DNA from: Candidatus Nomurabacteria bacterium
GTDB lineage: Bacteria > Patescibacteriota > Minisyncoccia > Phycocordibacterales > UBA9973
DNA: 33,064 nucleotides
NCBI GenBank assembly: GCA_025361085.1
Contig: JANYAX010000028.1
Coordinates: forward strand, 1 to 33,064
Reading direction: 5' to 3'
The notes below the pieces were generated by a model. The model was not told the origin of the DNA. It worked only from the letters and a program-made list of their open reading frames with translations, and ran no database searches. Positions 2,166 through 32,522 of this stretch are shown here, in pieces. Within the stretch, counting starts at the first letter, position 1. Each line of letters opens with the position of its first letter. The position numbers and the translations under genes are program-made.

Positions 2166-2340
2166 TGTGCCCCGTGAGGGAATCTCGCCCTACGGTCGCT
2201 GGTATTTTTCATGTTGTAAACAACATTGAAAAATCTTTCGCTCCCCTCACGCAAGCAAAGCAGTTTGCTTGCTACGAGGCACACATATTAAAAAAGACGC
2301 CTTAGCCGCTTTTTTAATATGTGTGCCCCGTGAGGGAATC
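2166..2340 (-). mobile_element. Putative small tRNA-3'-end-associated structured element (Lys copy)
   Basis: 19-bp direct repeats TGTGCCCCGTGAGGGAATC at 2166-2184 and 2322-2340 flank hairpins and a core shared with the tRNA-Gln copy (8914-9066). Confidence 0.55.
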
Positions 2341-2396
2341 GAACCCCCGACCATCTCCTTAAGAGGGAGCTGCTCTACCAGCTGAGCTAACAGGGC
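2325..2396 (-). tRNA. tRNA-Lys(CTT)
   Basis: GCCCTGT/ACGGGGC acceptor, GCTC/GAGC D-stem, anticodon loop CTCTTAA, GGTTCGATTCC T-arm; no encoded CCA. Confidence 0.92.
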
Positions 2397-8856: not shown

Positions 8857-8927
8857 TTGGGGATCGTCTAATGGTAGGACAGCGGCCTTTGAAGCCGTTA
8901 ATTGGGGTTCGAATCCCTGTCCCCAAG
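8857..8927 (+). tRNA. tRNA-Gln(TTG)
   Basis: TTGGGGA/TCCCCAA acceptor, GTCT/GGAC D-stem, anticodon loop CTTTGAA, GGTTCGAATCC T-arm, G73. Confidence 0.92.
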
Positions 8928-9066
8928 CAAAATTAAGCGAAGCGCAATTTTGCGTGGGAAGTGAATGAACTGCTTTATTCACGTCAGGGATTCGAGAGAC
9001 TTTTCCTTACCGAAGACGGGAAAGTACCCGCGACTGTAGGGCGAGAAATTCCCTGTCCCCAAGCAA
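8914..9066 (+). mobile_element. Putative small tRNA-3'-end-associated structured element (Gln copy)
   Basis: 17-bp direct repeats TCCCTGTCCCCAAGCAA at 8914-8930 and 9050-9066; internal hairpins and core match the tRNA-Lys copy. Confidence 0.55.
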
Positions 9067-9089
9067 TAAAACTGTGTTATACTACATAT

Positions 9090-10106
9090 ATGCAAATAAC
9101 ATCGATAGAAAAAAATTTCTTGTTCGTATTATTATTGATAACTGTTATTATTACCCTCTTGATTTTTTATCCTTTCCTCGCGATGTTCATACTTGCAGTG
9201 GCTTTTGCTGTAATGCTCAAACCTATTTATCACTGGATCAAAAAAAACATTACGAGAAATCTTTCTGGCCTCGCATCTTTCTTAACCATAATACTATTCC
9301 TTGCATGTTTGTGTGTTCCCCTTTTCTTTATAGGTAAAGCAGTTTTCAACCAGACACAAAGTCTATATTTTAGTATTGCCAGTTCGGGAAGTTCGAATCA
9401 TTTTATAGAAACAATCAATTCATCTATAAACAAAATACTCCCTGACGGTTTCAGTTTTGATATTCATTCTAAAATAACTCAAATAGTTTCTTCTCTCTCG
9501 GGCAATCTAGCAAAATTCTTTTCTTCGACAGTCAATTCGATTGTTATGTTTGTTCTTATGATATTTACTCTTTTCTATCTGTTGAAAGATGGAGAAAAAT
9601 GGGAAAGAGAATTTATAAATATCTTTCCACTTTCAGACAATAATATAAAAGAGATACTCTTCAATCTTAAAAAATCAATTAACAAAATTTTCAAGGGTTC
9701 ATTCATCATCGCGATTGCGCAAGCAATTTTGGCGTGGGTAGGATTCGTCTTCTTTGGTGTTCCAAACGCCATTATCTGGGCTATTTGTGCTGGTCTTGCA
9801 TCATTCATTCCTACAATCGGGACTTCAGTAGTTACTGTGCCAGCAATACTATTTTTGTTCTTTACTGGGATGCCACTACACGCACTCGGGCTTCTCATCT
9901 GGTCAATCATAATTGTCGGAACAGTTGATAATATCTTGAGCCCATACATTATTTCGAAAGATACGCCAATCCCTTCTCTCTTTATTCTTTTTGCAATCCT
10001 GGGTTCAGTGACATTGATGGGGCCACTTGGGATACTAATTGGCCCACTCGTCTTAAGTTTACTTTATAGTTTAGTTTCTATTTATAAAAAAGAAATTAGA
10101 GGTTAA
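9090..10106 (+). CDS. AI-2E-family transporter (UPF0118 permease)
   Basis: Multi-TM; FFGVPNAIIWAICAGLASFIPTIGTSVV... and DNILSPYIISKDTPIPSLFILFAILGS; start trimmed to MQITSIEKN. Confidence 0.88.
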   Translation: MQITSIEKNFLFVLLLITVIITLLIFYPFLAMFILAVAFAVMLKPIYHWIKKNITRNLSGLASFLTIILFLACLCVPLFFIGKAVFNQTQSLYFSIASSGSSNHFIETINSSINKILPDGFSFDIHSKITQIVSSLSGNLAKFFSSTVNSIVMFVLMIFTLFYLLKDGEKWEREFINIFPLSDNNIKEILFNLKKSINKIFKGSFIIAIAQAILAWVGFVFFGVPNAIIWAICAGLASFIPTIGTSVVTVPAILFLFFTGMPLHALGLLIWSIIIVGTVDNILSPYIISKDTPIPSLFILFAILGSVTLMGPLGILIGPLVLSLLYSLVSIYKKEIRG

Positions 10107-21487: not shown

Positions 21488-21571
21488 GCGTCGGTGGCAG
21501 AGTGGTCAATTGCATTTGACTGTAAATCAAACGCCCTTGCGGCTACGTAGGTTCGAATCCTACCCGGCGCA
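21488..21571 (+). tRNA. tRNA-Tyr(GTA)
   Basis: GCGTCGG/CCGGCGC acceptor, class II variable arm, anticodon stem-loop TTTGA-CTGTAAA-TCAAA. Confidence 0.95.
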
Positions 21572-23158
21572 CAACCTAGGACGAATTGGGTCAAAAGACT
21601 CAGTTCGTCCTTTTGATATAAGACTATCTTCTCGTTCCAACCGTTCTATTTCTGGCATAAGTTCTATTTCCCCTTCTTTGAGCTTTAAAAACCAAGAATG
21701 TAAGTCAATAAAGAGTTTTTTATCTTTTATTCTATGGTTCAAACCTAAGCTTGAAAAAATCTCTCTTTTTGTCTGAATATCACCATTTTCAAAAGCATCC
21801 CCCACACAGCACATAAAACTAACCACATCTTCTGTTAACTTTGTCCAATCTTTTATACGTCCCTCTGTTTCTAAAATTTTTATTTTATTTTTTTGTAACC
21901 CTTCCTCAATGTTTACTTTTTGTTTATTGTATTGATCTTTTGTTAATGTCCCATCAATTAAAAATTCCATAATGCGATCAAGCTTCTTTTGTAATTCAAG
22001 TATTTCTTTTTGCTGATTTTCGTAAATTTTTTGGTGAATAAGAGATTCATTTTTGTGCATTTCTGATAAAACTTCAAGGGCTAAATTATAAAACTTTTTA
22101 TTTATAGTTTTTTCCTTAAAAATTTTTAAAATTTTTTCTTCTAGATTCTCGGATGTTATTGGCTTCTCTTTGCAAGATATATACTTTTTTCTTTTTGTGC
22201 AATGATAATAGGTATGGTAATTGATAGTTCCATTTTTTAATATTTTGTGTTTTTTTGAGGCAGTAATTTGTGCTCCACAATTTTCACATGTCATAATACC
22301 AGTAAATGGAAATTCATGTTTTTGTGATCTTGGTCTACCTTTCTTACCCAAAAAAATCTGAGTTCTATCAAATTCATCCATTGTTATCATAGGAGTATGT
22401 TTACCTTGATATAATTGTCCTCCATACATGAAATTACCAGTGTAAAAAATATTAGTAAACATAATATACGCATAACTCTCAGAAATTGCTTTACCACCAA
22501 TTCTTTTTCTTTTTGGAGTATTTAAACCCCATTCATTAGTGGCCTTTCTTAACGTTTGTGGAATCGAATAATTTCCAGTGAGTAATAAGTCCCACATTTT
22601 ACGAACAATTAAAAATCTTTCTTCGTCTACAATAATTGTTTCGTTTCCTTTTTCATGAGTTTTTGAATTCAAATAGCCGATTGGTGGAATATTCGGAAAC
22701 CATCCCTTCTCGGCTTTTGATCTCATCCCTCTTTTTACATTTATAGATAAATCACGAATGTATTGACTAGACATTCCATTTTCAACAGACATAATTATTG
22801 CATTATCTTGTGGTAAATAATTCTTCTCTGGAGTTTTAATACAAAGTAATTTCTGTTTTTGTAAAAAATATTGAATGGCGCCACTATCAATTGCGTTACG
22901 AGATAATCTATCCATCTTCCAAACTAAAAGACCACTAATTTTACCTTGTTCAATTAGTTTTGAAAGTTTTATAAAGCCATCTCTCTTGTATGGCTCCTTA
23001 GCAGATTTTGCTTCAAATATAATTTCACTTATTTTTATACCTTCTCTTTTTGCTATAGCTTTCAGATTATTAATCTGATCATCAATAGACTGTATTTGCC
23101 TATCAGATGATTCCGTAGATTTCCTTGCATATATAGCCCATATTATATTTTTATCCAT
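21560..23158 (-). CDS. Large serine recombinase (site-specific integrase), LSR1
   Basis: IWAIYARKSTESSDRQIQSIDDQINNL, VWKMDRLSRNAIDSG, recombinase and zinc-ribbon (CENCGAQITASKKH) regions; stop codon lies inside tRNA-Tyr. Confidence 0.93.
   Translation of the reverse strand: MDKNIIWAIYARKSTESSDRQIQSIDDQINNLKAIAKREGIKISEIIFEAKSAKEPYKRDGFIKLSKLIEQGKISGLLVWKMDRLSRNAIDSGAIQYFLQKQKLLCIKTPEKNYLPQDNAIIMSVENGMSSQYIRDLSINVKRGMRSKAEKGWFPNIPPIGYLNSKTHEKGNETIIVDEERFLIVRKMWDLLLTGNYSIPQTLRKATNEWGLNTPKRKRIGGKAISESYAYIMFTNIFYTGNFMYGGQLYQGKHTPMITMDEFDRTQIFLGKKGRPRSQKHEFPFTGIMTCENCGAQITASKKHKILKNGTINYHTYYHCTKRKKYISCKEKPITSENLEEKILKIFKEKTINKKFYNLALEVLSEMHKNESLIHQKIYENQQKEILELQKKLDRIMEFLIDGTLTKDQYNKQKVNIEEGLQKNKIKILETEGRIKDWTKLTEDVVSFMCCVGDAFENGDIQTKREIFSSLGLNHRIKDKKLFIDLHSWFLKLKEGEIELMPEIERLEREDSLISKGRTESFDPIRPRLCAG
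21579..21610 (+). terminator. tRNA-Tyr terminator-like hairpin
   Basis: GGACGAATTGGGTC-AAAA-GACTCAGTTCGTCC then TTTT; overlaps the recombinase 3' end on the opposite strand. Confidence 0.6.
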
Positions 23159-26676: not shown

Positions 26677-26770
26677 ATTGCTAGCATACCTAAAAAGAGG
26701 TATTATTTCAATACAACTTAATAAGAGTAGCCTAAACCTTTATTTTATAAAGGTATGGTTAATAAACAGT

Positions 26771-26872
26771 CCTGACAGACATAAAGAACCCATCATATGG
26801 GGTTGTCTGTCAGGCCATGCAGGAAACTGCATGAGAGATCTCGGTCTCTACCTATGTGGTGGGCTTTTTGTT
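26771..26872 (+). ncRNA. Candidate structured RNA / leader with terminator
   Basis: CCTGACAGAC...GTCTGTCAGG (10 bp), CATGCAG-GAAA-CTGCATG (7 bp, GNRA loop), AGAGA/TCTCT, then CTACC-TATGT-GGTGG-GCTTTTTG. Confidence 0.55.
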
Positions 26873-30965: not shown

Positions 30966-32522
30966 CTAACATCTTCTAGTACGGCGCACCAAGATAGTAC
31001 AAATAGGTTTAGCGGGGGTTAATGTATGGGTGTGCCGTAGGCACGCCCACGCTGTTTGTGTTTGGTTTGCAACGGAATTTGAAAAATCGGGCGCGCTAGC
31101 GCGCACTAATCTTTCGCCGAGGAGGAGGTTCGAGCCAAAGACTTTTTTGGCAGCAACCTTTTTATTCAAAAGGTTGCAATCCAGTGCAATTTTTTCCATA
31201 TTTTGAGCCTCTTTTATCCATTCTCGCATCGGTTCGAGCCAATGTTTTTGTTTTTGTTGATTAAGAGATATTTCTTCCTCGAGCGACTTCTTTTCAGATA
31301 ATAAAATCGCTTTTTGAGTTCTGTAAGTTTCTTTATCAATATCTTGTTCTAAATATCCTTCTAGAAGTCGCTCAAGCTTTGCAGAAATATCTTTTATACT
31401 TTTTTGATTCTTTTCAACAAAAACAGAAACAGATTGGGCGGATTTATTTTCATCTTCATTGAGTCTCGTGTTTAAATAATCCGCCCAATCTTGTGGCATA
31501 GAAACTTTTTTGAGAAGTGATGAAATTTGCTCGTCCAAGACCTCTTGGCGAATGCAGGATTCGGGACATTTCATATCTCGTCTTTTCTTGGAACAATGAT
31601 AATAAGTATAGTAATGTTCTTTACCACTAATTTGTCTTTTAATCCTGTATTCGCCAGTTATCATCATTCCACAAGTAGCACAACTTAGGAGCCCGCAAAA
31701 TACTTGTGGTTCATTTTTATGAATCAGTCTTGGACGACCTCTCTCTTTCATCACTTCTTGAACTCGATCAAAAAGTTTCTTATCCACAATTGGTTCAAAC
31801 TTTCCTTCATATATTTCTCCAGCGTAGCGGAAATGTCCGTAATAGAATGGATTGGAGAGGATAAAAGTGGCTCGTGTTCTGTGTATTTTCTTTCCGTGTT
31901 TTGTCAAAAGATTATGTTTCGCCAAAAACATACCAATAGTATCAAGCGTTTGATTCCCTTGTGCATACATCTCAAACGCTTGGCGAACAACAGGCGCGGA
32001 CTTGGTATCTATTACAATCGTTTTCGTTCGACTATCATTTATATATCCTACAGGTGAAAGTCCTGGGTATTCTCCGCGCCTAACTTTTTGGCGTAAACCT
32101 CTTTTGGTATTTTCGGAAAGAGAATCCACATAATATTTACTTTGTCCGAAAGCCATATTGAGCATAAATTTACCCTGTGAAGTAGAATCACACCAAAATG
32201 TTGGGAATTTTAGGCTCGCAAGTTTCCCAATGTCGAGGAGATAAATAATCTTACCGCCATCAATACTATTTCTTGCAAGACGATCCGGATGCCAAGAGAG
32301 AACAGAATCTGCATCGCCATTTTCTATACACTTCATCATCTCATTGAAAATAGGTCTGCCTGGAATTTTTGCAGATTGTTTTTCAATGAACTCTTTGGCG
32401 ATGTAGAGATTTTCTCTCTTGGCATAGTCTCGTAATTCTTGCAATTGTGCCTCAATACTAAGCACCTGCTTATCCTCGACATCTGTGGACTTGCGAGCAT
32501 ACAAAAAGAATTTTTGTGACAT
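30966..32522 (-). CDS. Large serine recombinase, LSR2
   Basis: FFLYARKSTDVEDKQVLSIEAQLQEL, WHPDRLARNSIDGG, zinc ribbon CATCGMMITGEYRIKRQ. Confidence 0.93.
   Translation of the reverse strand: MSQKFFLYARKSTDVEDKQVLSIEAQLQELRDYAKRENLYIAKEFIEKQSAKIPGRPIFNEMMKCIENGDADSVLSWHPDRLARNSIDGGKIIYLLDIGKLASLKFPTFWCDSTSQGKFMLNMAFGQSKYYVDSLSENTKRGLRQKVRRGEYPGLSPVGYINDSRTKTIVIDTKSAPVVRQAFEMYAQGNQTLDTIGMFLAKHNLLTKHGKKIHRTRATFILSNPFYYGHFRYAGEIYEGKFEPIVDKKLFDRVQEVMKERGRPRLIHKNEPQVFCGLLSCATCGMMITGEYRIKRQISGKEHYYTYYHCSKKRRDMKCPESCIRQEVLDEQISSLLKKVSMPQDWADYLNTRLNEDENKSAQSVSVFVEKNQKSIKDISAKLERLLEGYLEQDIDKETYRTQKAILLSEKKSLEEEISLNQQKQKHWLEPMREWIKEAQNMEKIALDCNLLNKKVAAKKVFGSNLLLGERLVRASAPDFSNSVANQTQTAWACLRHTHTLTPAKPICTILVRRTRRC
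30987..31133 (+). repeat. Left arm of 147-bp inverted repeat flanking LSR2
   Basis: caccaagatagtacaaatagg...ggaggaggttcga; matches reverse complement of 32701-32847 with about 2 mismatches. Confidence 0.95.

Follow-up and report, generated by a model that had tools for sequence, protein, structure and literature searches.

Two Structured Elements Behind tRNA Genes

The window analyzed here, a stretch of 33,064 nucleotides from the Candidatus Nomurabacteria contig JANYAX010000028.1, carries a tRNA-Gln(ttg) gene on the plus strand and a tRNA-Lys(ctt) gene on the minus strand, and behind the 3′ end of each lies a strongly structured element (Table 1). The Gln element extends over 8961-9066 (+), and the Lys element, which is related to it, over 2272-2166 (-). 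Behind tRNA-Gln the 17-nt sequence TCCCTGTCCCCAAGCAA stands twice (8914-8930 and 9050-9066), at a spacing of 136 bp, and behind tRNA-Lys a 19-nt repeat, GATTCCCTCACGGGGCACA, occupies positions 2340-2322 and 2184-2166 of the minus strand. An earlier note on this DNA had described the recurring tRNA-Gln end, two hairpins (HP1 and HP2) and a core at the Gln locus, the same order of HP2 and core at the Lys locus, and an HP2 of 22 nt with a CTGC loop at both, and all of these are indeed present. Its inventory stopped short of the Lys HP1, the host-specific antisense arms, the terminator-containing form of HP1, the tmRNA host and the alternative cores. The arm that follows HP2 in the Gln element, GTCAGGGATTCGA, is exactly complementary over 11 nt to the 3′ end of tRNA-Gln, and HP1 at the Lys locus is a perfect hairpin of at least 20 bp.

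Table 1. Features of the two tRNA-associated elements in the window.
Feature	Position	Strand	Description	Basis
tRNA-Gln(ttg)	8857..8928	+	Host tRNA, intact first copy of the 3′ end	ARAGORN, Rfam
Direct repeat copy 1, Gln	8914..8930	+	T-arm 3′ strand, acceptor 3′ strand and 2 nt of trailer	Sequence
HP1, Gln	8922..8958	+	Acceptor 3′ strand and trailer (CCC..GCAAAATT) pairing with AATTTTGC..GGG; no U-tract	
HP2, Gln	8961..8982	+	GTGAATGAA-CTGC-TTTATTCAC, flanked by two antisense arms	
Antisense arm, Gln	8983..8995	+	Antisense of T-arm 3′ strand and T-loop, GTCAGGGATTCGA	
P2 helix, Gln	8998..9027	+	GACTTTTC / GGGAAAGT, bulged A9026, pair G8998-C9027	
P3 hairpin, Gln	9031..9043	+	GTA loop, followed by conserved AGA	
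Direct repeat copy 2, Gln	9050..9066	+	Second copy of tRNA-Gln 3′ end, doubling as 3′ strand of P1	
tRNA-Lys(ctt)	2323..2396	-	Host tRNA	ARAGORN, Rfam
HP1, Lys	2275..2330	-	Acceptor 3′ strand, trailer and terminator-like apex (..AAAAAAG..CTTTTTT..) pairing with antisense GTGTGCCTCG	
HP2, Lys	2251..2272	-	GCAAGCAAA-CTGC-TTTGCTTGC	
Antisense arm, Lys	2237..2250	-	Antisense of T-arm 3′ strand, GTGAGGGGAGCGAA	
Core, Lys	2187..2236	-	P2 (ATTTTTC/GAAAAAT) and P3 (CGACC-GTA-GGGCG)	
Direct repeat copy 2, Lys	2166..2184	-	Second copy of tRNA-Lys 3′ end; copy 1 is 2322-2340	

Mechanically called open reading frames begin within both elements, one (8961-10106, +) at a GTG in HP2 at 8961 and the other (1928-2284, -) at a GTG at 2284; for the transporter-like protein downstream of the Gln element, the real start is most likely the ATG at 9090. 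On the 5′ side of tRNA-Lys (2400-2480, -), a duplication takes in the promoter region together with the first 12 nt of the tRNA (GCCCTGTTAGCT), and GTTTTGGTAGG..CTAGTATAGTGAG comes after it. Comparable 5′ tRNA fragments with TGTTTTGGTTGG or CTATAGTGAG precede tRNA-Met/Asp in the related genomes G005 and G018, and such duplications possibly represent a second, 5′-side element. The window also contains a serine-recombinase-like ORF on the minus strand (21560-23158, in the region 21488-23158), overlapping tRNA-Tyr at its 3′ end, another recombinase-like ORF at 30966-32522, and, on the same contig, the orphan structured LOOT RNA (RF03000, 71.9 bits) at 26729-26849 (+).

Arms Follow the Host tRNA, Cores Do Not

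The general unit measures about 110-150 nt, lies 3′ of an intact tRNA and reads in the sense of that tRNA. It starts with HP1, the trailer or terminator hairpin of the tRNA with its stem lengthened by the antisense of the acceptor 3′ strand, and continues with HP2, a 22-nt hairpin positioned where the acceptor stem and the T-stem meet, whose loop is CTGC in 61 of 90 copies, CTAC in 12 and CTTC in 5. The antisense of the T-arm 3′ strand and T-loop comes next, finishing at T54, and is followed by a structured core that can be exchanged (P2/P3 or other modules) and by a direct copy of the T-arm 3′ strand, which closes stem P1 and often runs on through the acceptor strand and trailer.

The arms around HP2 are the reverse complement of the host tRNA, with the acceptor strand before the hairpin and the T-arm and T-loop after it. 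The longest match to the reverse complement of the tRNA 3′ end was determined for 70 elements of about 20 isotypes, with swapped tRNAs as controls. In the 14 nt before HP2 this match averages 7.5 nt for the element's own tRNA against 4.0±0.1 for swapped tRNAs, and in the 18 nt after HP2 it averages 9.6 nt against 5.4±0.18. Variants of the T-loop are mirrored as well, TTCAA being met by TTGAA and TCCGA by TCGGA. Cores do not follow the host in this manner: of 75 cores, only 8 have their nearest relative on the same tRNA of a different genome and 11 have it within their own genome, and for the remaining 56 neither applies. Arms are specific to the host tRNA, whereas cores are common to different tRNAs and species.

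Direct repeats of 13-26 nt are found at about 30 of 73 loci, and reach 22-45 nt or more where units stand in tandem; identical or near-identical tandem units occur at L145, L158, L163, L165, and L297. The acceptor part of the second copy is absent at about half of the loci. An intrinsic terminator alone does not explain the conserved sequence, since a T-run of at least five is present in only 40 of 70 HP1 hairpins and the co-varying HP2, P2, and P3 lie downstream. Variant cores exist in other species, for example behind tRNA-Lys of G023 (L253), where a single continuous antisense stands without HP2. Further core families occupy the tRNA-Lys site (L250, L251, L253, L255, L260, L263), reading GAAAGACGGAG..CGAGTCGGGGTCGC..GTGACCGA..GTACTCACG; in some of these alternative cores the antisense arm is uninterrupted and HP2 is lacking, and a AAGCGTGAATT variant linked to a terminator is also seen.

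Conserved Structure and the Folding Strand

In an alignment derived from the pattern, standard pairs fill 99.8% of 526 pair cells, and changes on both sides were recorded in 14 of 22 pairs, a value reached in none of 500 shuffles. Among 88 distinct model-aligned copies, 438 double-change cells were counted against 105±11 after shuffling, and the slid controls collapse. The helices keep 98-99.8% of their cells paired while accumulating compensatory changes, and the compensated stems first noticed at the two window loci are borne out strongly by the further copies. HP2 shows 7 GU against 1 AC, and all helices together 45 GU against 11 AC, the latter in a model-fitted alignment that favors GU. 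This excess of GU over AC points to the tRNA-sense strand as the folding strand, either as RNA or as single-stranded DNA, and the best reading is that the element folds in this strand, its transcription being inferred. A tRNA-like or T-box reading of the P2/P3 core was unsupported on inspection by eye.

In minimum-energy folds of the Gln and Lys transcripts, the antisense arms are predicted to engage the T-loop, T-strand and acceptor strand of the host tRNA, and the second copy to pair with the acceptor 5′ strand, completing the acceptor stem. Such computed folds would permit a maturation switch or an intron-like reading.

Distribution Across Genomes

A covariance model was built from 24 copies, both window copies included. 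The window copies score 93.6 bits (E 9e-23) and 101.6 bits (E 6e-25), values that alone would be circular because both belong to the 24; that the element is not due to chance follows from its detection by the model in 55 of 61 relatives, together with the pairing and compensatory changes of its helices. Several named Nomurabacteria/Paceibacteria are among the element-bearing relatives. Under strict filters and E<=0.001, 76 of 286 genomes of the class are positive, other classes of the phylum are matched as well (L306, L307, L309, and L310 show the order tRNA-arm-HP2-arm), and the number of copies per genome is patchy, from 0 to 32. The 771-kb genome to which the window belongs has 8 matches, hosted by tRNA-Lys(ctt), Gln(ttg), Gly(tcc, with two modules), Pro(tgg), Trp(cca), Lys(ttt), and the 3′ end of tmRNA.

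The earlier note would have been refuted by a lack of further copies next to tRNAs, by a lack of compensatory changes in them or by a match to an Rfam family, and all three tests turned out in its favor. Of 100 model matches, 88 lie within 450 nt 3′ of a tRNA on the same strand. Off-tRNA matches that were examined include two behind tmRNA (contig C26 of the same genome, and G018), one behind a tRNA-Lys 3′ end in G018 that a tyrosine-integrase element has apparently displaced, and one (L295) that follows a tRNA-Arg cut short in the D-arm. At the displaced site (G018 contig C1, 572512-587474), an intact tRNA-Lys(ttt) is separated from the element-bearing tRNA-Lys 3′ end by a stretch with two tyrosine integrase genes. 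By a model-independent antisense criterion, for which 12% is expected from swapped pairs, arms were found at 24 of 37 tRNA/tmRNA genes in G005; the same criterion gave 5 of 43 in G018.

A genome-wide search for the exact pattern returned 88 stretches, many of them outside the phylum, and rescoring these with the covariance model left strong matches only in Patescibacteria or unnamed bins, besides one 22-bit match in Mycobacterium. No element was found in viral contigs, where pattern matches look like chance, and two further exact-pattern scans were empty. Rfam 15, at gathering and relaxed thresholds, gave only tRNA and rRNA over these loci, along with weak sub-threshold matches to unrelated families; mir-9457 matches at the Lys HP1 merely reflect its long perfect hairpin. 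A literature search on tRNA-flank, palindromic and CPR RNA themes, restricted to open-licence papers, yielded nothing relevant. Neither Rfam nor this literature gave us a described family in which a structured element behind a tRNA contains an antisense copy of its host, in keeping with the earlier failure to name one; given the open-licence restriction, a description elsewhere is possible.

Variation Between Orthologous Loci

Orthologous tRNA loci without the insert, which had been proposed as a check, exist within the genus. At the obgE/tRNA-Lys(ctt) locus, G002, G003, G013, and G022 have a terminator only, G000, G004, G005, G009, G011, and G016 have a P2/P3-type element, and G001, G008, G010, G012, G018, and G023 have other cores; across this locus the arms co-vary with the variants of the tRNA. 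The closest pair, the sister species G005 and G023 (about 85% identical in the obgE region), differ in the core found at a given tRNA (Gly-ccc, His, Ile-tat, Lys, and tmRNA) and keep the arms despite this, and their HP1 hairpins are similar. Their comparison reveals decayed remnants where the element was lost; a clean, recent empty/filled site was not found, the pair offering no unambiguous empty site. No tRNA retains its element throughout the genus. In 48 cases the next gene shares the strand of the element and in 47 it does not, a random orientation that argues against regulation of the downstream gene, and this candidate was dismissed.

Search for a Mobilizing Enzyme

The element itself encodes no gene. 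In the genomes of the relatives, none of the Y1_Tnp, RVT_1, or Phage_integrase gene families tracks with element copy number. RVT_1 was not detected in G005 (31 copies), Phage_integrase not in G023 (32 copies, 92% complete), and Y1_Tnp not in G007, G009, G019, G021, and G022 (8-13 elements each), and G014 has six Y1_Tnp genes and zero elements; serine recombinases were outside this survey. Six Y1 genes of G018 carry palindromes unlike HP2, and HP2 hairpins are located at tRNA, tmRNA, or displaced tRNA ends. Several Y1_Tnp genes of this genome (e.g., 532118, 33453, 62078) have their own short palindromes on both sides (CTGTCCAGGC..GCCTGGACAG and others).

Comparison with Known Systems

Like REP/BIME palindromes and RAYT or IS200/IS605 hairpins, the elements are short palindromic non-autonomous repeats with many copies per genome, and Y1 genes are common in the genomes that carry them. 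Unlike these, they are confined to tRNA/tmRNA 3′ ends and have host-specific arms, and the Y1 genes possess unrelated palindromes of their own and do not follow the copy number. Genomic islands and integrative elements that use tRNA 3′ ends through tyrosine or serine recombinases likewise leave a direct copy; however, the present unit of about 110-150 nt has no genes, contains an inverted copy of the site, is found at all isotypes within one genome, and reaches 32 copies in a genome without detectable Phage_integrase. Integron attC sites share single-strand folded sites and exchangeable modules, but the arms here are tRNA-specific, and no integron integrase or cassette genes were noticed, attC itself not having been searched.

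With group I introns in tRNA genes the element has in common a guide complementary to an exon junction and a structured core; it differs in lying outside the anticodon loop, in having a complete first exon copy and in the lack of an Rfam match. It does not qualify as a group I or group II intron or as a retroelement by the features surveyed, as no Rfam intron family matches and RVT_1 is missing from G005 with its 31 elements. Retroviral and LTR primer-binding sites are also antisense to the tRNA 3′ end, acceptor first and T-arm second, but in our case HP2 interrupts, the trailer replaces CCA, the site is the tRNA gene itself, and no reverse transcriptase is detected in G005. T-box riboswitches also involve RNA pairing with tRNA; the present element, in contrast, stands behind a tRNA and not before a regulated gene, the strand of the next gene is random, and no Rfam T-box match was obtained.

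A Plausible Scenario for the Element

The elements may be interpreted as a new class of small, non-autonomous, structured elements of tRNA and tmRNA 3′ ends, probably mobile, whose arms are templated from the host tRNA; we would give this interpretation, in which mobility and transcription are inferred, an even chance of being correct. A non-autonomous mobile element is favored by the absence of the acceptor copy at about half of the loci together with the lack of any tRNA keeping its element genus-wide. Support also comes from the tRNA-matched arms, the spread over about 20 isotypes and tmRNA, the patchy copy number, the locus variation and the core exchange, as well as from repeats that reach into the trailer (up to 26 nt), tandem units, the random next-gene strand and the wobble bias. 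It is weakened by the want of a clean empty/filled pair, of an enzyme tracking copy number and of viral copies. The earlier note had left the choice between a mini-element and a regulatory RNA open, and the data now lean toward the element without settling it.

At the tRNA 3′ end, insertion or template-directed copying would generate new copies, either event duplicating this end in both orientations. Since the site lies behind an intact tRNA, insertion could be harmless, and T-loop, T-stem and acceptor might serve as a universal landing site; the mobilizing enzyme may be a host enzyme acting in trans. Hairpin-templated correction by template switching, along with selection for a folded single strand, could keep the arms matched. 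Template switching is reported to create perfect RNA hairpins and to maintain them (PMC8794818), and it is a candidate route for the copying and matching of arms.

The main rival is a host-selected RNA of tRNA maturation, possible in our estimation though rather unlikely, which would act as a device for tRNA supply: after read-through of the terminator, the arms would capture the T-loop, T-strand and acceptor strand and block folding, or re-route it via the second copy, leaving only transcripts that are correctly terminated or processed to give tRNA. The predicted Gln and Lys folds, in which the first 3′ end is sequestered and the acceptor 5′ strand pairs with the second copy, agree with such a device, as do the co-variation of the arms at the orthologous Lys locus, the strong compensatory change and the T-runs of HP1, and the strong conservation of the core structure makes a host function equally possible. 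However, the acceptor part of the second copy is missing too often, no tRNA needs the element, given sister species without it or with a changed one, and tandem arrays and core swapping are unexpected for a fixed regulator.

An RNA-guided mobile element of a new kind is a further, unlikely version of mobility, in which a split antisense guide (acceptor part, HP2, T-arm/T-loop part) in the transcript would dock on the tRNA/tmRNA 3′ end and the element would spread between tRNA genes via RNA-level or target-templated insertion, with the guide rewritten from each new host tRNA. We find it improbable that the element is a ribozyme or intron-like RNA, with the split antisense as internal guide on the ligated tRNA-3′-end junction, inserting by reverse splicing or excised from the T-arm, its catalysis being only inferred. 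The guide does span both sides of the T-loop/T-stem boundary, the unit is flanked by direct repeats, and the Gln transcript fold resembles a T-arm-interrupted tRNA completed by the second copy; but the first copy already yields an intact tRNA, the 3′ acceptor copy is missing from many elements, which argues against the T-arm intron suggested by the minimum-energy fold, and none of the group I, group II, or self-cleaving ribozyme families of Rfam is matched. Very doubtful, too, is a mere mutational by-product without any element, in which template switching during replication enlarges tRNA terminator hairpins until they form perfect palindromes with the 3′ end of the tRNA. The exceptionally perfect palindrome of HP1 and the hairpin-making and hairpin-keeping activity reported in PMC8794818 speak for it, but it cannot yield the same HP2 loop, P2/P3 core and part order behind about 20 different tRNAs across many genomes. 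Nor can it produce the compensatory changes of HP2, P2, and P3, for which no tRNA offers a template; as a full explanation it is largely refuted, and it remains plausible only for keeping arms matched.

Implications

For annotation, the element matters because gene callers open false ORFs inside it (here 8961-10106 and 1928-2284), and its sense and antisense tRNA fragments will confuse tRNA-fragment RNA-seq. Genomes of Patescibacteria are tiny, yet about two thirds of the tRNA and tmRNA genes in one species bear this appendage. The element is either mobile and of a new type, its target arm rewriting itself, or a device that serves tRNA maturation in general within a very large bacterial lineage, and the covariance model and the core differences between G005 and G023 make both principal readings testable.
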